Shown in pieces: positions 6,369 through 30,721 of a stretch of 30,935 bases of DNA. The notes under the pieces were generated by a model. The model ran no database searches. It was not told where the DNA came from and saw only the letters and a list, made by a program, of their open reading frames with translations. Location of the stretch: positions 1-30,935 of IMG/VR virus record IMGVR_UViG_3300042886_000400; one strand, given 5' to 3'. Position 1 is the stretch's first letter; each line of letters opens with the position of its first letter. The position numbers and the translations under genes are program-made. Source of the stretch: a virus.

Positions 6369-7760
6369 TTAAAATACAAATTCTGAACTGATTACTTCTT
6401 TTGGAAATGAGTTTACGCTTGGTTGTTTAAAAGTTGTTTTATTATTCAAATCCATGAATTTAGACTTTGACAAATCACAATCTATTGTTGTGAATCTAAC
6501 TTCGCCAAATCTATTTTTTGCAAATATTACCTCTGCTTTATTGGTCAAACTATTTCCATTTGCATCAACCATTTCGTTATAATATTCGGGCCTGTAAACA
6601 AACATCACTACATCTGCATCCTGCTCAATACTGCCTGATTCTCTTAAATCTGATAGCATTGGGCGTTTATTTGTACGTGATTCGCACGATCTACTAAGCT
6701 GACTTAAAGCTATCAAAGGTATTTGCAAATCTTTAGCGATTAGTTTCAAACTTCTTGAAATTTCGCTTACTTCTTGTTCTCTGCTTTTGCCCTTTCTGTT
6801 ATCGTCTTGCATTAATTGCAAATAGTCCACAATAATAAATTTAATATCATGCTTTAGTTTTAGGTTTGTAGCTTTACTTCTTAAAATCATTGGCGTTAAG
6901 CTTGAAAAATCATCCAAGAATACTTTTGTATTCCCTAGCCTTATACTTGCTTCCTGGAGTGGCATAATATCCAAGTCATGTATTTTATTTTGGTCAATGT
7001 TTCTTGAATCAACTCCACTTTCAGAGGCAATAAATTTATCAACTAATTGGTCTTTTGTCATTTCGAGTGAAAACACTACCCCTGATGCGTTATTAAAGCA
7101 AGCCATATTTCTAGCAATATTTAAAGCTAAAGTTGTTTTGCCCATACCTGGGCGACCTGCTAAAATTATTAGGCTACCATTTTTAAAATTACCTCCCATT
7201 GTTTCGTCTATTGAAACAAAGTTTGATGGAATACCTTTTATTTTTTTGTCTTTTTTGTCGTCGAGTAAGTCAATAATCCGTTCGTTTGAAAGTTTACTTA
7301 ATTCATCAATTGGCTTAACAATTAAATTATCAACTGCGGTTGAAAGTTGCAATTGAACTTTTGCCATTAACTGTAAAGGGTCGATACTTAAATTTACAGC
7401 TTCTGCGAGGCTTTTATTTGCAAAGTGTACTAATTCACGTCTAACATATAGTTCTTTCAATGTAGATATGTAAGACTGCAAATTTTGGGTACTTACAATT
7501 AAGTTATAACACTCATTTATAAAAATTATTGTACAACTTAGTCCTAAGGCTCTTGATTCTTTAGAAACTGTTAAAATATCGATACCTATATTTTTTTTAA
7601 TTAGGCTTTCTATGGCTATTATTGCATCCCTTACATTTTCATCAAAAAACATTTCGGGTTTAATTTGTGAAATGTATGTAATTGGTGCTGATGAATCGTT
7701 TAGAAAAGCTCCTAATATTGTCTTTTCAATTGTTTTGTCGTTTGGTAGATTATAGCTCAT
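6369..7760 (-). CDS. dnaB: Replicative DNA helicase DnaB
   Basis: 463 residues, the ring helicase that unwinds the phage replication fork. The N-terminal helical domain (1-105) matches DnaB-N (LPNDKTIEKTILGAFL). A linker leads to the RecA-like domain with Walker A GRPGMGKT (202-209), SLEM (231-234), Walker B IIVDYLQLM (309-317), ALSQLSRSCESR and SDLRESGSIEQDADVVMF. All expected motifs are intact. It overlaps the initiator-like gene upstream by 11 bases, so loader/initiator and helicase are made together. Confidence 0.95.
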   Translation of the reverse strand: MSYNLPNDKTIEKTILGAFLNDSSAPITYISQIKPEMFFDENVRDAIIAIESLIKKNIGIDILTVSKESRALGLSCTIIFINECYNLIVSTQNLQSYISTLKELYVRRELVHFANKSLAEAVNLSIDPLQLMAKVQLQLSTAVDNLIVKPIDELSKLSNERIIDLLDDKKDKKIKGIPSNFVSIDETMGGNFKNGSLIILAGRPGMGKTTLALNIARNMACFNNASGVVFSLEMTKDQLVDKFIASESGVDSRNIDQNKIHDLDIMPLQEASIRLGNTKVFLDDFSSLTPMILRSKATNLKLKHDIKFIIVDYLQLMQDDNRKGKSREQEVSEISRSLKLIAKDLQIPLIALSQLSRSCESRTNKRPMLSDLRESGSIEQDADVVMFVYRPEYYNEMVDANGNSLTNKAEVIFAKNRFGEVRFTTIDCDLSKSKFMDLNNKTTFKQPSVNSFPKEVISSEFVF

Positions 7761-8520
7761 GTCGTTTGTATTGGCTTGGTGGAGATACGTTTTGTAATGG
7801 TTGCGTTGGTAATTGTGAAATTTTATCTTTATTGCACCAGTTCGTAAGTGTCAAATAAACGCTTAAATTTTTCTTAGTTAATTGTGCGCTATTTTCCATT
7901 GCTTTTAGTTTTTGGTCTATCAAAGTATTACCAAATTTATTCAACAACTCAATACATTCTTTATTTGATAATTGAGTTTTTAATTTAGAAACATTAGGAA
8001 AATTTTGAGATACATATAAGCGTAGCGGATTAATTTTTTCTACTTCTACTTCTTTTTCTACTTCTTTTTCTACTTCTACTTCTACTTCTACTTCTACTTC
8101 TACTTTCGGAACCATACCGAAATGGTTAGAAAGGGTTTCAAAGGATTCTAAAGTGTTGTTTTTATCTAACTTAATACTATTGTCTTTTAAGAAGTTAGGT
8201 AGATTTTCATAACAATCAATTGCGGATTTAATCATGTTCGTATTAAAATGCTGATGTTTAAGAAAATTTAATAAAATTAAATAATTCTCTTTATACTTTA
8301 TTTTCCCAATCCTTTCAAATGATTCTAAAGCCTTTGAAACTATATCTTTTGTAAGTCCAGTTTCAAATGAAATTTTCTTTATACTTAATTCATAAATACC
8401 AAGCATGTTAGTTTTCTCATTAGTAATAAAATAAAGATAAAGTAGCTTTTCTGATGGTGTTAAGTCCTCTATAAAAGGATCACTCCAAAACGCAGTAGAT
8501 ACACTTCTAAGCTTGCTCAT
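7750..8520 (-). CDS. Replisome organizer / replication initiator-like protein
   Basis: 256 residues. Residues 1-100 (SVSTAFWSDPFIEDLTPSEK, YLYFITNEKTNMLGIYELS, ISFETGLTKDIVSKAL) form the winged-helix region typical of Bacteroidetes phage replisome organizers. A low-complexity (VE)n linker (about 139-162), encoded by a hexamer repeat, joins it to a C-terminal domain (about 163-256). Position directly upstream of dnaB fits a lambda O/DnaD-like protein that binds the origin and loads helicase. The function is inferred from domain layout and neighbour; DNA contacts are not shown. Confidence 0.75.
   Translation of the reverse strand: MSKLRSVSTAFWSDPFIEDLTPSEKLLYLYFITNEKTNMLGIYELSIKKISFETGLTKDIVSKALESFERIGKIKYKENYLILLNFLKHQHFNTNMIKSAIDCYENLPNFLKDNSIKLDKNNTLESFETLSNHFGMVPKVEVEVEVEVEVEKEVEKEVEVEKINPLRLYVSQNFPNVSKLKTQLSNKECIELLNKFGNTLIDQKLKAMENSAQLTKKNLSVYLTLTNWCNKDKISQLPTQPLQNVSPPSQYKRHEL
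8041..8105 (-). repeat. Hexanucleotide tandem repeat inside the initiator gene (possible origin)
   Basis: The plus strand shows TACTTC repeated, with two TTTTTC variants; the minus strand reads (GTAGAA)n and encodes alternating Val-Glu. About six perfect units lie at 8071-8105. Because the unit is six bases, copy-number change keeps the frame. Lambda-type phages place origin iterons inside the initiator gene in the linker between DNA-binding and helicase-binding domains, the same position as here. The origin role is inference. Confidence 0.5.
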
Positions 8521-9109: not shown

Positions 9110-11299
9110 TTAATTATTGAAATCAAGCATTAAAACACTATTTTTTTCTTCAACACAAGACTTGTGGTTTTTTGCATTAATAGTAAAATAGCTTTCTTTT
9201 AATTCAATTGATATAGATTTTCTATTCATTTTTAAAGCAGAAAATCCTTCGCTACCAATACCGCCAAATGGACTAAGTACTGTTTCTCCTTCATTTGAAT
9301 ATAAATGTAATATCCTTTCAATTGTATCTAATTGTAATGGGCAAATATGCTTTTCATCATTACCATCTCTGCCACTCCTATATTGTAATGTTCTTGAATA
9401 GTCAATATCATTCCAAACTGGAGAAGCATATTTTTGCCACAAATCAACGGGTAAGTAATCGCTTTTACTTGGGTCGGTGTCTTGGTGGGTAATTGGTATT
9501 TCATTATCACCTTCATTTCTAAAAAACAAAATATAATCAGGTATGCCTACTCTTGTCATAGAACTATCTTTTTTAATAGTTTTATGAAGCAATCCTAATG
9601 CTTTAGTTCTTTGCATTTCGGTTACTGGATTCTTCCAAATGGTTGCACGTGAATGATAAATAAATCCATTTTCTTGAAACCAATCAATCAACATTCCTGA
9701 AAAATCACGTAATCCAATATATCCTTCTTTGCCTTTTTGAATAGGCAAATCCATGCAATGAACTGCACAAATACGACCACTTTTAAGCGTTCTTTTTAAT
9801 TCAGGTATTAAGAATTTAAAATGATGTTCAAATTGCTTGTAATTGCTTACATTCCCCATATCTTCTTCTTTGTCTGAGTATACATATAATTCAGCAAAAG
9901 GAGGGCTAAAAACTACAATATCAGCACAGTTATCGGGTAGTTTTTTGGTTTCTTGAACGCAATCACCATTGATCAAATGGTAGTTATTAGTTTTAATTTC
10001 TTTATTCACGACTTTAAATTTAGATTTTGCACTTTTATAATTTGATTCACTTGAATATTTAGCCATTTCTTGAATCATTTCAATGTGTCTTTGATGTTTT
10101 TCAATAATAGATTGTCTAACATTCAATTGACTTTTAGGTACTAAAATATGAATAGTTACTTTATTAGTTTGACCGAACCTATAACAACGTCTTACAGCCT
10201 GATAAAATGCCTCAAATTTGAAATCATAAGACATAAATATCATTTGGTCGCATTGTTGGTAATTCATGCCAAAACTTGCAATACTTGTTTTAGTTACAAG
10301 TATTTTAAATTCTTTTCTAGCAAATCCATTTAAGTGTTTTGCTTTATATTCAGGACTATCAGAACCTTGAACATTTACTGCATTGTCAATTAATTTTACA
10401 ATTGTATCAGTTTCATTGTTTTTTAACCCCCAAATAATAAACTGTTTATCGTTTTCACTTACTAATTCAATTGTTTTTTTGACACGTTCTTCAAAGCTAC
10501 GATTCAAATCTTTATGCAAATCAGTTGCTGAAATTGCAACATCGCCAAATAGATTGTCAGTATTGTTTTCAACTTCGATAAAATGCTCAATAAATTCAAT
10601 TTCAGGTAAGTCATAACCAACATGATTAAATCCTAAAGTTTTAGGATTATCACAAGCCATTGACCAGGTACAAACATATTTCCAGAATGAATCTTTAGCG
10701 TGTTTTCTTAGTCGCCATTTACTTGTTTCACCACCATCATGCACAAAGTACATTGATAACATTTCAAGGTATGACATTGCTCCTATAAATTCACTATGCT
10801 GGCCAAGTTCCATGTGGTCGTTGGGTGATGGAGTTGCCGTACACGCTAATTTATAAGGCGTATTTTTAAATAACTCAATTATCATATTTGACAATTTGCC
10901 ATCACGACCTTTTAAAATTGAACTTTCATCAAGGACAATACCAGAATAAATTGAAACATCAATATTTTTCAATTGGTCATAATTAGTGATATCAAAGCAA
11001 TCCAATGAAATACCAAACTTAATAGATTCTAATTTAGTTTGTTCAACTACTGCCAATGGCGCAAGTATTAAAACTTTTTTATTAGTATAGTTATAAACTG
11101 CTTCACTCCATGATAATTGCATTAATGTTTTACCTAAACCACAATCAAAAAATAAAGCAAATTTACCTTTTCTTAATGATGTAATTACTGCATATTTTTG
11201 AAAGTCAAATAAATTAGTATTTAGTTCACTTTCATTAATTTCAAAACCACTTTCTATAAATGATTTTTTCTTAGTTTCTAAAAACTCTTTGTATTCCAT
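9110..11299 (-). CDS. SNF2-like helicase fused to a DNA methyltransferase
   Basis: 729 residues with two enzymes. Residues 25-400 are a superfamily 2 (SNF2-like) motor: Q-type LFDFQKYAV, Walker A CGLGKT (53-58), motif II LDESS (123-127), motif III TATP (154-157), motif VI RRCYRFGQ (370-377). Residues 435-729 are a beta-class N4-cytosine/N6-adenine methyltransferase: NGDC, catalytic SPPF (465-468), a target-recognition region, CPLQLDTIERI (653-663), and the AdoMet motif LSPFGGIGSEG (675-685) at the C-terminus. No nuclease domain is seen. A motor coupled to methylation could modify phage DNA during replication or block host restriction. Its ATG overlaps the RHH gene stop (TAATG). Confidence 0.9.
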   Translation of the reverse strand: MEYKEFLETKKKSFIESGFEINESELNTNLFDFQKYAVITSLRKGKFALFFDCGLGKTLMQLSWSEAVYNYTNKKVLILAPLAVVEQTKLESIKFGISLDCFDITNYDQLKNIDVSIYSGIVLDESSILKGRDGKLSNMIIELFKNTPYKLACTATPSPNDHMELGQHSEFIGAMSYLEMLSMYFVHDGGETSKWRLRKHAKDSFWKYVCTWSMACDNPKTLGFNHVGYDLPEIEFIEHFIEVENNTDNLFGDVAISATDLHKDLNRSFEERVKKTIELVSENDKQFIIWGLKNNETDTIVKLIDNAVNVQGSDSPEYKAKHLNGFARKEFKILVTKTSIASFGMNYQQCDQMIFMSYDFKFEAFYQAVRRCYRFGQTNKVTIHILVPKSQLNVRQSIIEKHQRHIEMIQEMAKYSSESNYKSAKSKFKVVNKEIKTNNYHLINGDCVQETKKLPDNCADIVVFSPPFAELYVYSDKEEDMGNVSNYKQFEHHFKFLIPELKRTLKSGRICAVHCMDLPIQKGKEGYIGLRDFSGMLIDWFQENGFIYHSRATIWKNPVTEMQRTKALGLLHKTIKKDSSMTRVGIPDYILFFRNEGDNEIPITHQDTDPSKSDYLPVDLWQKYASPVWNDIDYSRTLQYRSGRDGNDEKHICPLQLDTIERILHLYSNEGETVLSPFGGIGSEGFSALKMNRKSISIELKESYFTINAKNHKSCVEEKNSVLMLDFNN

Positions 11300-11746: not shown

Positions 11747-11917
11747 ATGAATGAAGAACTAATAGAGGAACTAGGGAAGCGAAAGTACAACCTTTCGAAA
11801 ATTGAAAAGGAATTAGGTATACCCAAAAATACTTTATACCAGGCCCTAAAAAAACAAAGGGAAATACCTATGAAGTATCAAACATCAATACATCATTACA
11901 TCCAAAACAACTATTAA
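11747..11917 (+). CDS. Small helix-turn-helix protein
   Basis: 56 residues: MNEELIEELGKRKYNLSKIEKELGIPKNTLYQALKKQREIPMKY... The segment NLSKIEKELGIPKNTLYQALK (about 15-35) is a clear helix-turn-helix, and the preceding and following helices fit a Cro/XRE-like mini-protein. Second gene of the rightward operon, opposite the RHH gene, so the pair could form a genetic switch. The operator might be the palindrome at 11512-11527. Role inferred. Confidence 0.65.
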   Translation: MNEELIEELGKRKYNLSKIEKELGIPKNTLYQALKKQREIPMKYQTSIHHYIQNNY

Positions 11918-13307: not shown

Positions 13308-13339
13308 TTTGTTTATATTAAAACAAAGAACTACATTTG
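13308..13339 (+). promoter_or_regulatory. Second rightward promoter
   Basis: TTTG (13308-13311), 20 bases, TACATTTG (13332-13339): full Bacteroidetes -33/-7 match. It has AAACAAA just upstream of the -7 box like the other early promoters, but a normal 37-base leader before the ATG at 13377. It starts the ERF/thymidylate synthase operon. Confidence 0.65.
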
Positions 13340-25122: not shown

Positions 25123-25262
25123 TAAGCTACTTTTTTAAGGCGTTCGTATGATTCTATTTCATCACATACTATTTCTTTAGGCATTGCGATAATTAAACAG
25201 GTTGGTAATCCGATTACTTTACACCCTCTTTTTCTTGCTCCACAACTGTTAGTTATTCTCAT
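25122..25262 (-). CDS. Cys-rich microprotein between structural genes
   Basis: 46 residues: MRITNSCGARKRGCKVIGLPTCLIIAMPKEIVCDEIESY..., with Cys at positions 7, 14, 22 and 33, which might bind a metal. ATG at 25262 overlaps the connector gene end; its TAA overlaps the next ATG (TAATG). Function unknown; the junctions at both ends support a real gene. Confidence 0.5.
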   Translation of the reverse strand: MRITNSCGARKRGCKVIGLPTCLIIAMPKEIVCDEIESYERLKKVA

Positions 25263-26263
25263 GGTCGTGCAAATGTTTGTTGAAATCTTTCATTGTTTGA
25301 AAAGCACCCATTTTTAGGCAATACCATATTTTTAAATGATATATCCATGTACTTGTTGTATTCGTTAATATAGTGGTCGTACATTCCGTTTAGTTCCTCG
25401 TTGGTATATTGACTTGTAAATATATTGAACCTCTCGGATAGCTTTGTTTCTTGGACTATTTCGCTTAGTAACAAGTAAGCCCATGCAAGTTTGAATCTGT
25501 CAATAATTGGCGCAATAAATTCTTCAAGTGAACACTTTTGATTGAAATCTAGTATTATGCCCCAAGTGTTTGCAACGCTTGTTACATTAGCTTTTACGTT
25601 TGGTTGCTTACCTGTATTGATAGCACCAACACAACTAATCGAATAACCATTTACAAATCCTGTGCTTTGCATTGCACAATCATCTTGATAGCTTGCTTGG
25701 GTTTGGTTTAATTGAAAATCATTATTATCATAGCATAAAAAATAATTAGGGTATAAATTGCCGTTGTTTTCAATTTCTAAATCCAAATAAACATCGTTGA
25801 ATCCTTCGGCTAAATCAACGGTAACGGTCTTAATCAATAAACCTTTATTTAAGTCATATATTAAGAACTCGGCATCGGTAACCGTACTATCTGAATAACA
25901 ACTAAATTGAGTTAATTGAACACGCTCATATCTATCTTGTATGCCATAAATTTTAATACCTACATAGTCATTACTTGCGCTATTCATTGTAAGCGTTTGA
26001 GGTTGTAACCCAAATTGTAATTGGTCTTTGACAATAGGCATCAAAGCACGTCTATTCAATCTATCAAGTATGCCCTCGTTTATTAACAAAGTGCATCTTT
26101 CTTGAATGTTGTCCCAGGTCGCTGAAAATGTTTTATCCTCGGAATTGCTTATTTTATCCAAAGATTTTAAGCTAACCCCTGCCATTTGATTAATCCAAAA
26201 GTTGCTTCTTGGAGTTGTTAATGTGCAAGATTTTAACCCTATATAGTCTTTAAAAATTCTCAT
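25259..26263 (-). CDS. Structural protein, possible head-tail connector
   Basis: 334 residues from ATG 26263 (MRIFKDYIGLKSCTLTT); an in-frame TTG upstream (26278) falls in the terminator hairpin and is rejected. Phrases: WINQMAGVSLKSLDKI, NDYVGIKIYGIQDRYERV, a central beta-rich domain and a helical C-terminus (LAWAYLLLSEIVQETKLS; ELNGMYDHYINEYNKYM). It follows the capsid gene across a terminator/promoter element. Adaptor or connector is likely by position, but no family was recognised. Confidence 0.6.
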   Translation of the reverse strand: MRIFKDYIGLKSCTLTTPRSNFWINQMAGVSLKSLDKISNSEDKTFSATWDNIQERCTLLINEGILDRLNRRALMPIVKDQLQFGLQPQTLTMNSASNDYVGIKIYGIQDRYERVQLTQFSCYSDSTVTDAEFLIYDLNKGLLIKTVTVDLAEGFNDVYLDLEIENNGNLYPNYFLCYDNNDFQLNQTQASYQDDCAMQSTGFVNGYSISCVGAINTGKQPNVKANVTSVANTWGIILDFNQKCSLEEFIAPIIDRFKLAWAYLLLSEIVQETKLSERFNIFTSQYTNEELNGMYDHYINEYNKYMDISFKNMVLPKNGCFSNNERFQQTFARP

Positions 26264-26266
26264 AGC

Positions 26267-26311
26267 CAAAAATAACAAAAGCCGTACATTTCTGTACGGC
26301 TTTGTGCCACT
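26267..26311 (-). promoter_or_regulatory. Candidate late promoter (copy 2 of 3) overlapping a terminator
   Basis: Minus strand AGTGGCACAA (26311-26302), 27 bases, TATTTTTG (26274-26267), then the ATG at 26263 after three bases. The gap contains the terminator hairpin (26278-26303). Same elements and spacing as at 618-662; see findings. Confidence 0.45.
26278..26303 (-). terminator. Terminator after the major capsid gene
   Basis: AAAGCCGTACA (26278-26288) and TGTACGGCTTT (26293-26303) pair perfectly around a 4-base loop (GAAA on the minus strand), a strong 11-bp stem; the minus-strand tail is TTTTGTT. It ends or attenuates the scaffold/capsid transcript in the 75-base gap between the capsid gene and the next gene. 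Confidence 0.8.
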
Positions 26312-26338: not shown

Positions 26339-27421
26339 TTATTCAGCAGTTGCGGTATAACGAAGTAAGCCATTAGAACCAGCTAAATCATCATAAGTAC
26401 CATAAGCGTCAGTAGGAACTACATAAACACCTGCATTGATAGACAATCTTAACAAGAAAGTATCGGTACAAGTATCAAATTCAAACTTAGCGTCATACAT
26501 TAAGTTTGGTATCATTGGGTCAGGGATAGTGAACAATGTTGCAGCGCCAAAAGTGCCTGCATATTTGCCAACATATTTATTCCATGACATAAATTGTGCA
26601 GAACCTTCGCCCATCACAATCAATTCATTAGCGCCAACAATAGTATTAACTGCTTTGTCAACGAAGAACTTGTAATCTTGAGAAACGCTTGAGAAATCAA
26701 CACCGCTATTTTGTAAGCCGTATTTATTCGTACCTAGGTCGAATTTCTCAAAGTTGCCTTTACCAATAATGATAGGAGTTCCGTAAAGTTCATTTTCTGT
26801 GAAGTCAGAAAGTAAAGTTTGGAATCCTTCAAAGATTGGCGCACCTGCAACAATCCCCGTAGCACCTACTGAAATAACAGGGATAGAAGTAGTTGTATTA
26901 ACTCCTGTCGTTGCATTGATACCAAATGAAGTAGATAATTTAGTTACTACTTCGTCATTGATAGACGTACGCATTGCATTCATCGCTGACAAGATGCGTT
27001 TACTAACTTCTTTCAAGTTGTAAGGTACAGGCAAACCAGCTACCGCGGTAGAAGCTTCTTCACAGAACACTCTAATCTCATCCATTCCTAGAGAAATGTC
27101 ATATTGACGATAAATGTCAAGTAAAGTAGTGTCTTCCACATAAGTTTGAGGATCACCAGCTACGCAGTCAGCAGTAGATTTGATAAGGTCTTTTGTTACC
27201 CTTGGTAAATATTTAACGCGTACCTCTTTAATCGTACCCGTTTTGTTTCCACCATAAACTGAAAGTATTTCAGCTGATTGGTTTTCAGGTTGAGAAAGTG
27301 CAAGTGTTGCACCTACTGGAGTTTGCTTAGTTTGTGGGTCATTAAGACCAGCAACCATTTCCAAACCTGTAAGAATTGCAGGGCATACGCCTGCGACATT
27401 GAAATCAATACCTTGTGCCAT
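26339..27421 (-). CDS. Major capsid protein
   Basis: 360 residues, directly downstream of the scaffold gene and followed by a strong terminator, the usual position. Phrases: DFNVAGVCPAILTGLEMVAG at the N-terminus, VTKDLIKSTADCVAGD, LSAMNAMRTSINDEVVTKLST, YGTPIIIGKGNFEKFDLGTN, DPMIPNLMYDAKFEFD. Acidic, beta-rich, hydrophobic C-terminal half, compatible with an HK97-type shell protein. I recognise the layout but not a precise family. Confidence 0.75.
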   Translation of the reverse strand: MAQGIDFNVAGVCPAILTGLEMVAGLNDPQTKQTPVGATLALSQPENQSAEILSVYGGNKTGTIKEVRVKYLPRVTKDLIKSTADCVAGDPQTYVEDTTLLDIYRQYDISLGMDEIRVFCEEASTAVAGLPVPYNLKEVSKRILSAMNAMRTSINDEVVTKLSTSFGINATTGVNTTTSIPVISVGATGIVAGAPIFEGFQTLLSDFTENELYGTPIIIGKGNFEKFDLGTNKYGLQNSGVDFSSVSQDYKFFVDKAVNTIVGANELIVMGEGSAQFMSWNKYVGKYAGTFGAATLFTIPDPMIPNLMYDAKFEFDTCTDTFLLRLSINAGVYVVPTDAYGTYDDLAGSNGLLRYTATAE

Positions 27422-27423
27422 AA

Positions 27424-28272
27424 TTATAAGCCGTTTGATTGTTTAGCTTTTGCTAAGTTTTGAGCAAAAGTGTTATTCACTTTTTGTGTTGGTTGTGCAT
27501 TTGCTTGTTGTGTAACTACAGGAGGTACAACGGTTGCAACGTGCAATAGATTCTTTTCGGCAAGGGCTTTTTGAATACCTGTTTTAATGTCCAAATCAGT
27601 AACGTCTAAACTTTCGTCTGATAGTCTTTTTAGCTTTAATTCACCATTTTGTAAAACAACTTTAGCGTCTTTAGATCTGAAGAAATCTGATACAGCTTGC
27701 TTAGCAAGTGATCCTCGATATTCTGAAGGGATGCTCTCAGTTATTTTATGCTGGTTAATAAAACTTGACATATTCCAATCAATTTCTTTATTAATAGATT
27801 GGTTGACTAGGTCAATGTTTGCAGATTTGAAACTTTCAACTTGATTTGATAATTCTGAAATCTTAGACTTGTATTCTAAATCTAATGCTTTCATTTTTTC
27901 ATCATTGCCACTTGCTTTTGTTTTTGCTTCGATAAGCTTGTTAGCTTCATCCGTTAATTTTGATATTCTTTTAAATGTTTTAGGTTCTGAAGCCCTTAGT
28001 TCGTTAATCTGTTCATCGCTTAGTCCAAGCCCCTTGAAAGCCAAAGTCAGTTCTTTGTCTGTCGCATCTGCAAATTCACTGAAGAATTTTGCTTTGATGT
28101 CGGGATTGTTTTTTGCTTCGTTGGCAGTTAGTAAACCACTTTCAAAAGTTTTTGCTAATTCCTCATCTATCTCAATAGTTGCGGTTAAGCCTATAAGTTG
28201 TTTTAATGATTCATTTGCTGAATCCGTTCCCACTTTCGTAGCTAATGTTGTAATAAGTTCTCCCAATAACAT
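27424..28272 (-). CDS. Capsid scaffolding-like protein
   Basis: 282 residues, highly charged and helical. Coiled coil about 85-155 (EPKTFKRISKLTDEANKLIEAK; ALDLEYKSKISELSNQVESFKS), an intermediate region (IPSEYRGSLAKQAVSDFFRS), and a Gln-rich tail ending in a basic helix (NTFAQNLAKAKQSNGL). Immediately precedes the capsid gene, as phage scaffolds do. It has no visible protease motif. Confidence 0.75.
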   Translation of the reverse strand: MLLGELITTLATKVGTDSANESLKQLIGLTATIEIDEELAKTFESGLLTANEAKNNPDIKAKFFSEFADATDKELTLAFKGLGLSDEQINELRASEPKTFKRISKLTDEANKLIEAKTKASGNDEKMKALDLEYKSKISELSNQVESFKSANIDLVNQSINKEIDWNMSSFINQHKITESIPSEYRGSLAKQAVSDFFRSKDAKVVLQNGELKLKRLSDESLDVTDLDIKTGIQKALAEKNLLHVATVVPPVVTQQANAQPTQKVNNTFAQNLAKAKQSNGL

Positions 28273-28300
28273 AAGGACAGGTTTTAGTTAGTTTTTTTTG

Positions 28301-28345
28301 CAATTTATAGCATAAGTAAAAATAAATTTACTAAATTGTGCCACT
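28301..28345 (-). promoter_or_regulatory. Divergent control region, late promoter copy 3 of 3
   Basis: Minus strand AGTGGCACAA (28345-28336) then 27 bases and ATAAATTG (28308-28301): only the final TTG fits the -7 box well, so this copy is degenerate, but its TTG sits at exactly the distance seen in the two other copies. A palindrome AATTTA-C-TAAATT (28325-28337) overlaps the 10-mer. The region also starts the rightward cassette at 28346. Confidence 0.4.
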
Positions 28346-28573
28346 ATGGAAGAATTCAAACTAAATAGGGTTGTTACTCGAATCCCAACGCCAATATTAA
28401 AATGGCTAGATTTAAGGACAAAAGGGCAGAATTATAAGCGTTCGCGAGTTTTGAAGGCGATTATAAATGAGCACAAGCTATGCGAAGACTTGACAGGTAA
28501 AACAGTTTGGCAAGTAATTAAAGATAATATTGAACTAAGAAAAGAAATATTAAAATTAAAGCGTTATGAGTAA
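28346..28573 (+). CDS. RHH-type regulator of the moron cassette
   Basis: 75 residues: MEEFKLNRVVTRIPTPILKWLDLRTKGQNYKRSRVLKAIINEHKL... A short strand (RVVTRIP) and two helices separated by a basic turn fit a ribbon-helix-helix DNA-binding protein. First gene of the rightward cassette, 73 bases from the divergent scaffold gene. Overlaps the next gene by 8 bases. It may regulate the divergent region with its palindrome at 28325-28337. Function inferred. Confidence 0.55.
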   Translation: MEEFKLNRVVTRIPTPILKWLDLRTKGQNYKRSRVLKAIINEHKLCEDLTGKTVWQVIKDNIELRKEILKLKRYE

Positions 28574-29087
28574 ACACCCTTGGAATAGTGAGGATGCAGT
28601 TAGTAGCCTAATTGCTGAATTGATTAAAATTAAAACGTGTAAAAATGTATTAGAGATTGGAGTTTTCCAAGGACAAACAGGTTTAGCAATGATTAACGCT
28701 TTGCCGAAAAATGGCACTTATACAGCGTTGGATATTACTGAAGAAAACTATACTACTGAATTTAAAACCAAATTAAAGAAACATACTTCATTAGTTGGTA
28801 ATTCATTAGAGTTGTTACATGAAATACCCAATAGAAGCGTAGACTTAATATTTATTGACAGCGTACACGAATATGCGCACCTTAGTAAAGAGTTCAAAAT
28901 ATGCGAGAATATCATTAAGCAAAATGGATTGATTGTACTACATGATTCTATACTCTTTCCTGGAGTTGCTCAATTTGTGAAGGAGTTAAAAGGCAATAAA
29001 GGATTTGAAATCTTGACACTTGAAACTCCAGAGGAGGGCGACCGTACCCCTAGTGGATTAACTATTATTAAATGCTTATATCCGTAA
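28566..29087 (+). CDS. Class I SAM-dependent methyltransferase (Methyltransf_24-like)
   Basis: 173 residues. Motif I VLEIGVFQGQT (28-38), TALDITEEN, SVDLIFIDSVHEYAHLSKEF (91-110) and GLIVLHDS (121-128) fit the Methyltransf_24/cephalosporin hydroxylase-like type that acts on small molecules or sugars. No DNA-methylase motif. With the FkbM enzyme downstream, it might modify cell-surface glycans and so alter receptors. Substrate unknown. Confidence 0.8.
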   Translation: MSKHPWNSEDAVSSLIAELIKIKTCKNVLEIGVFQGQTGLAMINALPKNGTYTALDITEENYTTEFKTKLKKHTSLVGNSLELLHEIPNRSVDLIFIDSVHEYAHLSKEFKICENIIKQNGLIVLHDSILFPGVAQFVKELKGNKGFEILTLETPEEGDRTPSGLTIIKCLYP

Positions 29088-29456: not shown

Positions 29457-30092
29457 ATGAGAAAACAAGCTTTAAAAGATGGTACATTTATCTATACACA
29501 CGACAAAGGCGAGTATATAAGTGACGTGATTGAGCAAACAGGGTGGTATTACGAACCTAAGACAATAGACTATATTAAGAACCTTAATTTAAAAGACTGT
29601 AATATTCTTGATATAGGGGCAAATATTGGCAATCATAGTCATGCCATGCAAAAGTTTAGTGATAATTGTCAGGTTGGGTCATTTGAACCATATCAAAAAA
29701 ACTTTGATATACTTAAAAGAAATGCTAGATTTTCTTACAACAATTTTGTAACTAATAAAAATGATGAAAAAAATTATAGTATTGCTCCAGTTTGGGGAGG
29801 TGCCAATTTAGGCTATATTACATCAAGTAAAGATGGCGAAAAAGTTAATAATACATTTATTGATTACTATGAACTTGATAATATAGGACTAATTAAAATT
29901 GACATTGAAGGTCACGAATTAGAAGCTTTAAAAGGGGCGTTTAATACCATTAAAAAAAGTACCCCTTGCATCATTGCTGAACACCATACCAATGAAGAAC
30001 ACATTCAAGTATTGGACTATCTAAAGCAGTTTGGGTATAAGCTTGAAACAATAATTAAAGAAGATAATCTAAACTATGTTTATACGATTTAA
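29457..30092 (+). CDS. FkbM family methyltransferase
   Basis: 211 residues. AdoMet motif ILDIGANIGNHS (50-61), GSFEPYQKNFDILKRN (74-89), and IGLIKIDIEGHELEALKGA (143-161) are FkbM signatures. FkbM enzymes methylate sugars or polyketides, often on surface polysaccharides. In a phage moron cassette beside an Imm-like protein, receptor modification by glycan methylation is plausible but not proven. Confidence 0.85.
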   Translation: MRKQALKDGTFIYTHDKGEYISDVIEQTGWYYEPKTIDYIKNLNLKDCNILDIGANIGNHSHAMQKFSDNCQVGSFEPYQKNFDILKRNARFSYNNFVTNKNDEKNYSIAPVWGGANLGYITSSKDGEKVNNTFIDYYELDNIGLIKIDIEGHELEALKGAFNTIKKSTPCIIAEHHTNEEHIQVLDYLKQFGYKLETIIKEDNLNYVYTI

Positions 30093-30102
30093 CTAAAAAA
30101 GT

Positions 30103-30261
30103 ATGATAGAATTAATGTCACATGAAACCAAAACTGAACTGTATGAATCATTAGTTACTATTTTAAACAATGAAATTGAAGAATTGAAACATTCAAGTGA
30201 AATATTAATCCATGAAAATAAGTTCTTAAAAGATACAATATTAAAACTAATTAAACCTTAA
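30103..30261 (+). CDS. Coiled-coil microprotein, paralog 1
   Basis: 52 residues: MIELMSHETKTELYESLVTILNNEIEELKHSSEILIHENK..., predicted coiled coil. The C-terminal 20 residues are identical to those of the gene at 30491-30721, as part of a 69-bp repeat. Function unknown; possibly binds the upstream or downstream product. Confidence 0.55.
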   Translation: MIELMSHETKTELYESLVTILNNEIEELKHSSEILIHENKFLKDTILKLIKP

Positions 30262-30490: not shown

Positions 30491-30721
30491 ATGATTATGT
30501 ACAATATAAAGTTTCAATATCCAAGTTTATTGGATATGATAATTGACGAGCAATTAAATTTTAAACCAAAAAGCATGAGTGATAAAGAAAAAATTGAATC
30601 GTATGAATTATTAGTTACTAAACTAAATAATGAAATTAAAGATTTGCAATCTAAAAATGAAATATTAATCCATGAAAATAAGTTCTTAAAAGATACAATA
30701 TTAAAACTAATTAAACCTTAA
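30491..30721 (+). CDS. Coiled-coil microprotein, paralog 2
   Basis: 76 residues: MIMYNIKFQYPSLLDMIIDEQLNFKPKSMSDKEKIESYELLVTKLNNEIKDLQ... The C-terminal half is the same coiled coil as in the gene at 30103 (YELLVTKLNNEIKDL vs YESLVTILNNEIEEL), and the last 20 residues are identical. Its 3' end overlaps convergently with the minor head protein gene. Confidence 0.6.
   Translation: MIMYNIKFQYPSLLDMIIDEQLNFKPKSMSDKEKIESYELLVTKLNNEIKDLQSKNEILIHENKFLKDTILKLIKP

Follow-up and report, generated by a model that had tools for sequence, protein, structure and literature searches.

A two-part element, composed of the motif NGTRGCACAW, a spacer of 27–28 bases and the box TAHHTTTR, was found at five orthologous places in a family of 13 metagenomic phage contigs, in the late transcription direction at all five, and we hold it to be probable that it acts as a late promoter, at which a putative ribbon-helix-helix (RHH) protein of the phage recruits the polymerase to five late units and, at one of the places (site 4), represses its own gene. 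The promoter would combine a host −7 box, TAHHTTTR, with an activator site, GTRGCACAW, 27–28 bases upstream of it (centre near −45), and would have no −33 element. The RHH protein (75 aa) would bind the site as a dimer or a pair of dimers, and the bound protein would recruit the RNA polymerase of a Bacteroidota host to the tail tape measure unit after terL (site 1), the end of the tail cluster (site 2), the portal unit (site 3), the scaffold-capsid unit (site 4) and the unit after the capsid gene (site 5). At site 4 the same binding would cover the start of the RHH gene, so that synthesis of the protein would be repressed and the capsid unit switched on.

The stretch of DNA that was analysed (the window, labelled G000) was a virus record of 30,935 bases. 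The 10-mer AGTGGCACAA occurred in it in three exact copies against 0.05 expected, all on the late (minus) strand, no further exact copy was present on either strand, and three copies were reached by none of 100 shuffles of the window. An earlier reading made without database searches (the sequence-only reading) had placed three minus-strand copies correctly and had rightly held that they were not a chance occurrence; TTATTTTTGGCT before ATGAG, which it had reported as common to the copies at sites 1 and 5, was also real. Its distance of 27 bases to an 8-base box was valid for the copies in the window; once the relatives are counted in, it is either 27 or 28 bases. The box of the third copy (site 4), described as degenerate, is so at a spacing of 27 (ATAAATTG), but at 28 it reads TAAATTGC, and the ortholog in G006 is a perfect TATATTTG. 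Features are listed in Table 1.

Table 1. Sites of the two-part element and associated features (positions refer to the window)
Feature	Position	Strand	Remarks
Site 1			at terL stop codon; present in window
Motif of site 1 (putative activator site), AGTGGCACAA	653–662	−	overlaps terL stop codon; orthologous in 12/12 relatives covering the place
−7-like box of site 1, TATTTTTG	618–625	−	27 bases downstream of motif
First late gene after site 1 (121 aa)	248–613	−	predicted leaderless mRNA
Site 2			near 3' end of 746-aa virion protein gene, end of tail cluster; outside window
Site 3			last codons of 244-aa gene, ahead of portal unit; outside window
Site 4			ahead of scaffold-capsid pair; present in window
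Motif of site 4 (putative activator site), AGTGGCACAA	28336–28345	−	between divergent genes
Degenerate −7-like box of site 4	28300–28308	−	ATAAATTG (28301–28308) at spacing 27; TAAATTGC at 28
75-aa RHH-like protein, candidate late activator	28346–28573	+	ATG abuts site 4 motif
First gene predicted to be driven by site 4 (282 aa)	27424–28272	−	scaffold/protease position before capsid gene; function from position only
Major capsid candidate (360 aa), second gene after site 4	26339–27421	−	function inferred from conservation and position
Site 5			directly after capsid gene; present in window
Motif of site 5 (putative activator site), AGTGGCACAA	26302–26311	−	downstream of major capsid candidate gene; orthologs in relatives
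Intrinsic terminator hairpin	26278–26303	−	fills putative promoter spacer (27 bases) of site 5
−7-like box of site 5, TATTTTTG	26267–26274	−	doubles as terminator U-run
Late gene downstream of site 5	25259–26263	−	listed from TTG 26278; conserved start is ATG 26263

Relatives from IMG/VR had capsid identities of 82–100% and TerL identities of 87–99% and form with the window the family G000 to G012, the closest relative being G001 (44,815 bases, capsid identity 100%). Compared with this near-identical contig, the window (~31 of 44.8 kb) is without about 12 kb between its two ends, and the gap between the left (terL side) and right ends holds the tape measure and portal genes with sites 2 and 3. 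A search of related phages for motif and spacing, which the sequence-only reading had put forward as a check, found them kept at five orthologous late-strand sites across the 13 contigs. At site 4 of G004/G005 the motif was broken or reversed (TGTGTGCCAA) and in all other relatives it was kept, which is unexplained; in G011 an extra terminator-like hairpin was found directly upstream of the site 1 motif (L112, about 1775–1806). Among more distant TerL relatives (34–41%), no common motif with fixed spacing was found. A profile search with the 360-aa major capsid candidate gave no match, and bacterial genomes, to which the search for capsid relatives was extended, yielded none. The exact two-part pattern was also searched over 2.9 million viral contigs and matched once each in 41 unrelated contigs; such matches outside the family were rejected as chance, the contigs checked having no second match and no protein related to the RHH-like one, and extra matches inside genes, e.g. 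at 31247 in G001 (TGTAGCACAA), were not conserved and were treated in the same way.

Several other features of these phages were recorded. Within its portal region, the portal-like protein (L091:6783–8540, minus strand) weakly matched the CXXCXGXG zinc domain of DnaJ. On the minus strand of the window, positions 7750–8520 encode a DnaD-like replication protein with a Val-Glu/Lys repeat run (VEVEVEVEVEKEVEKEVEVEK) and positions 9110–11299 a 729-aa fusion of an SNF2-type helicase and a DNA methyltransferase. On the plus strand, opposite to the late genes, lie a methyltransferase (28566–29087), which is found beside the RHH-like gene in most relatives, and an FkbM-like methyltransferase (29457–30092); two small tandem plus-strand genes (30103–30261 and 30491–30721) have near-identical C-termini and are apparently a duplication.

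Information per base at site 1 was 1.73 bits in the motif and 1.75 bits in the box, and 0.86 bits in the spacer and 0.58 bits in the upstream flank; judged from these aligned sequences, motif and box are conserved and the spacer is not. Among 38 distinct copies, TAHHTTTR stood at offset 27 in 12 and at offset 28 in 8, and the remaining offsets between 0 and 59 together gave only four, at a background rate of 0.0018 per position; offset 27 was first suggested by the window's own copies, and the relatives had no part in its selection. When the whole genome of G001 was scanned, four places had a two-part score of at least 14, vs 0.05 in Markov controls. The boxes of sites 1 and 5 match TAHHTTTG exactly or with A for the last G, the boxes at site 2 and part of site 4 have one or two mismatches to TAHHTTTG, and weak boxes are found at sites 3 and 4. 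TTTG was absent at the −33 position (17–22 bases upstream of the box) in 49/49 copies, which bears out the remark in the sequence-only reading that no good −33 TTTG was present. Host promoters themselves have only a weak −33 element (PMC6847099), and its absence here is therefore only mild evidence for dependence on an activator. The canonical pattern TTTG/TAnnTTTG was not enriched in the window (2 vs 1.76 expected), and for this reason no early-promoter map is claimed; one of its copies (13308–13339, plus strand) precedes a gene and recurs in relatives.

The element shares with the sigma-ABfr promoters of Bacteroidota (TTTG/TAnnTTTG; PMC6847099) the −7 box TAHHTTTG and, by prediction, a start 4–5 bases downstream of it, and differs from them by the lack of a −33 TTTG, the conserved GTRGCACAW at about −45, the A allowed for the last G of the box and the distance of 3–4 bases from box to ATG. 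The host is inferred from the host-type boxes, an SprB repeat and a DUF3127 protein, and is probably a flavobacterium or a relative.

The RHH-like protein is likely to be the late activator; its binding, activation and dimerisation are inferred and no binding data are available. The gene was present in 8/8 relatives whose contigs cover the region (identity 45–100%), with a variable N-terminal half and a conserved C-terminal half of the protein. No match was found in Pfam and PHROGs. Alignment of its profile with hhalign against CopG/Arc/NikR/Rv0298 gave E 6.7e-4 and spanned the strand, the first helix, the R-S turn and the second helix, and the score was reached by 0/60 column-shuffled profiles; of the comparison sequences, CopG and Arc were verified against the PDB. 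The profile match is weak; Arg8-Val10-Arg12 of the phage protein can be placed in register with the strand residues of AmrZ and Arc. The AlphaFold monomer was weak (mean pLDDT 68), with helices at 15–24 and 30–50 and the strand unmodelled; in RHH proteins the strand forms only in the dimer. A Foldseek search with the monomer model gave no match and was uninformative. On the RHH strand at site 4, the motif abuts the ATG in the window and in G001–G003 and overlaps a perfect TAnnTTTG in G006 (TACATTTG), G007 and G008 (TATGTTTG), so that protein bound there would block the promoter of the RHH-like gene; in the window the box of this promoter is poor (CTAAATTG), and autorepression is therefore an inference.

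Site and protein were observed to co-vary. The third base of GTRGCACAA was G throughout the aligned sites of G000–G003 and A throughout those of G006, G007, G008 and G010; G004/G005 were mixed, with three A sites and one G site. Within genomes the base agreed in 36/37 cells (permutation p about 5e-6). At position 12 of the RHH-like protein, every GTG phage has Arg and every GTA phage has Tyr; no other alignment column shows a single residue in each group, and among ten possible 3:3 lineage splits only the GTG/GTA split had such a column. The contigs of G010–G012 are without the gene, and the model predicts Tyr12 for these phages. Residue 12 aligns with Arc Arg13 and AmrZ Arg22, both of which are base contacts. 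Site 5 of G004/G005 is an exception and stays GTG despite Tyr12. The GTG phages are not one clade (3,700-column protein tree; AU p 1.5e-4), and the tree requires three changes for the site base and three for residue 12. The phages are mosaic and allow only 1–3 independent switches to be counted, so that the covariation, although strong as a pattern, rests on few events. A reading of GTGGCAC as a symmetric palindrome was rejected, the symmetry being broken by the GTA allele; symmetry is not required, because the half sites recognised by RHH dimers are themselves asymmetric (Arc TAGA, AmrZ GGC).

The motif falls within coding sequence at sites 2 and 3, as codon GGC or AGC followed by ACA, with GGC (Gly) in GTG phages and AGC (Ser) in GTA phages, in step with the intergenic sites. 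Of the late-strand codons for Gly, 15% are GGC, and of those for Ser, 14% are AGC; from these shares it appears that the DNA word rather than the amino acid is under selection at these two sites. With moderate confidence we propose an RHH-class activator that would serve five dispersed late promoters (two in genes, two predicted to be leaderless), repress itself and have the specificity of residue 12 and of the sites changing jointly among close relatives. The suggestion in the sequence-only reading of a phage activator site that replaces the −33 element is thus supported by the conservation and by the co-varying activator candidate; 'promoter' and 'activator' are strong inferences, and no transcription starts have been measured.

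The activator could instead be another phage protein, e.g. the 56-aa helix-turn-helix protein at 11747–11917 (plus strand), with a different role for the RHH-like protein. We regard this as unlikely: the 56-aa protein has weak helix-turn-helix and transcriptional-regulator matches and is also kept in G005 (83%) and G008 (41%), but it is not near any site, it sits in the divergent early region, where a repressor is expected, and it is comparable in three genomes only, whereas the RHH-like protein is encoded next to site 4 and varies in step with the motif. Alternatively, the RHH-like protein might repress the late promoters early, late expression resulting from its loss or removal. At all late sites, however, the motif lies near −45, upstream of the polymerase core contacts, and a repressor needs neither fixed helical phasing (the distance to the box is nearly fixed) nor a defective promoter (the −33 element is missing); we therefore have serious doubts about repression of the late promoters, even though Arc and Mnt, the RHH regulators of phages that are best known, act as repressors and the site overlaps the expected start of the RHH-like gene itself.

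For the proposed RHH-activated promoter, the distance from box to ATG at sites 1 and 5 was 3–4 bases in all phages (in the window, 4 bases at site 1 and 3 bases before ATG 26263 at site 5). Transcription in Flavobacterium johnsoniae starts 4–5 bases after the −7 box (PMC6847099), and most mRNAs of this species have leaders. From the two distances taken together, leaderless mRNA is predicted at sites 1 and 5, beginning at or within 1–2 bases of the AUG; there are no transcript data. The site 5 spacer was observed to meet the criteria of an intrinsic terminator, a GC-rich hairpin followed by a T run, and this T run is the −7-like box; the stem differs in sequence among relatives, with pairing kept. 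The motif thus joins a terminator hairpin at site 5, and late genes have GTRGCACAA on their sense strand in every case, as would also be seen if it acted in RNA as a processing, antitermination or translation signal. Such a role is very improbable given that no hairpin is evident at the other sites, that the distance from motif to host −7 box is fixed and that the change of the motif base tracks the predicted DNA-recognition residue. A chance repeat or recent duplication without function has a negligible likelihood and is already refuted by conservation: isolated two-part matches do arise, as in the 41 unrelated contigs, but the window has its three copies far above expectation and the five sites are kept across phages with diverged flanks and spacers.

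The proposed RHH-activated late promoter was compared with known systems. Arc and Mnt of P22 are likewise small phage-encoded RHH regulators, and are known as repressors rather than as late activators. Arc makes its base contacts from strand positions 9, 11 and 13 (PMC12645479). AmrZ of Pseudomonas aeruginosa, also an RHH protein, has Lys18-Val20-Arg22 corresponding to Arg8-Val10-Arg12 of the phage protein and a GGC-containing site, and is activator and repressor in one protein (PMC3325190), as is predicted for the phage protein. It differs in being a bacterial regulator with two GGC half sites, the phage having one 9-base site and a different C-terminal half, and the kinship rests only on the weak profile match of the phage protein to RHH proteins in general. 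In P2/186/P4, a small phage protein (Ogr/B/Delta) binds upstream and activates the late operons jointly; these are zinc-finger proteins on a dyad near −55 and differ from the present system in protein fold and site. The MotA box of T4 is centred at −30. As in the T4 MotA/AsiA middle promoters (PMC2988021, PMC6755090), a phage activator site would replace the upstream element with the host downstream element kept; the T4 system needs AsiA, and it differs in the position of its box, the site here being centred near −45.

In the open-access literature no paper was found on an RHH late activator or on late promoters of Bacteroidota phages; the parts are of known kinds, and their combination, undescribed as far as this literature shows, appears to be new. 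If the proposal is true, these phages would have a compact, testable late switch and would offer a natural series of matched regulator/operator alleles for a specificity change at many sites at once, with predicted leaderless late mRNA in a phylum that lacks Shine-Dalgarno signals, and covariation would allow late promoters to be located in phages that have not been cultured.
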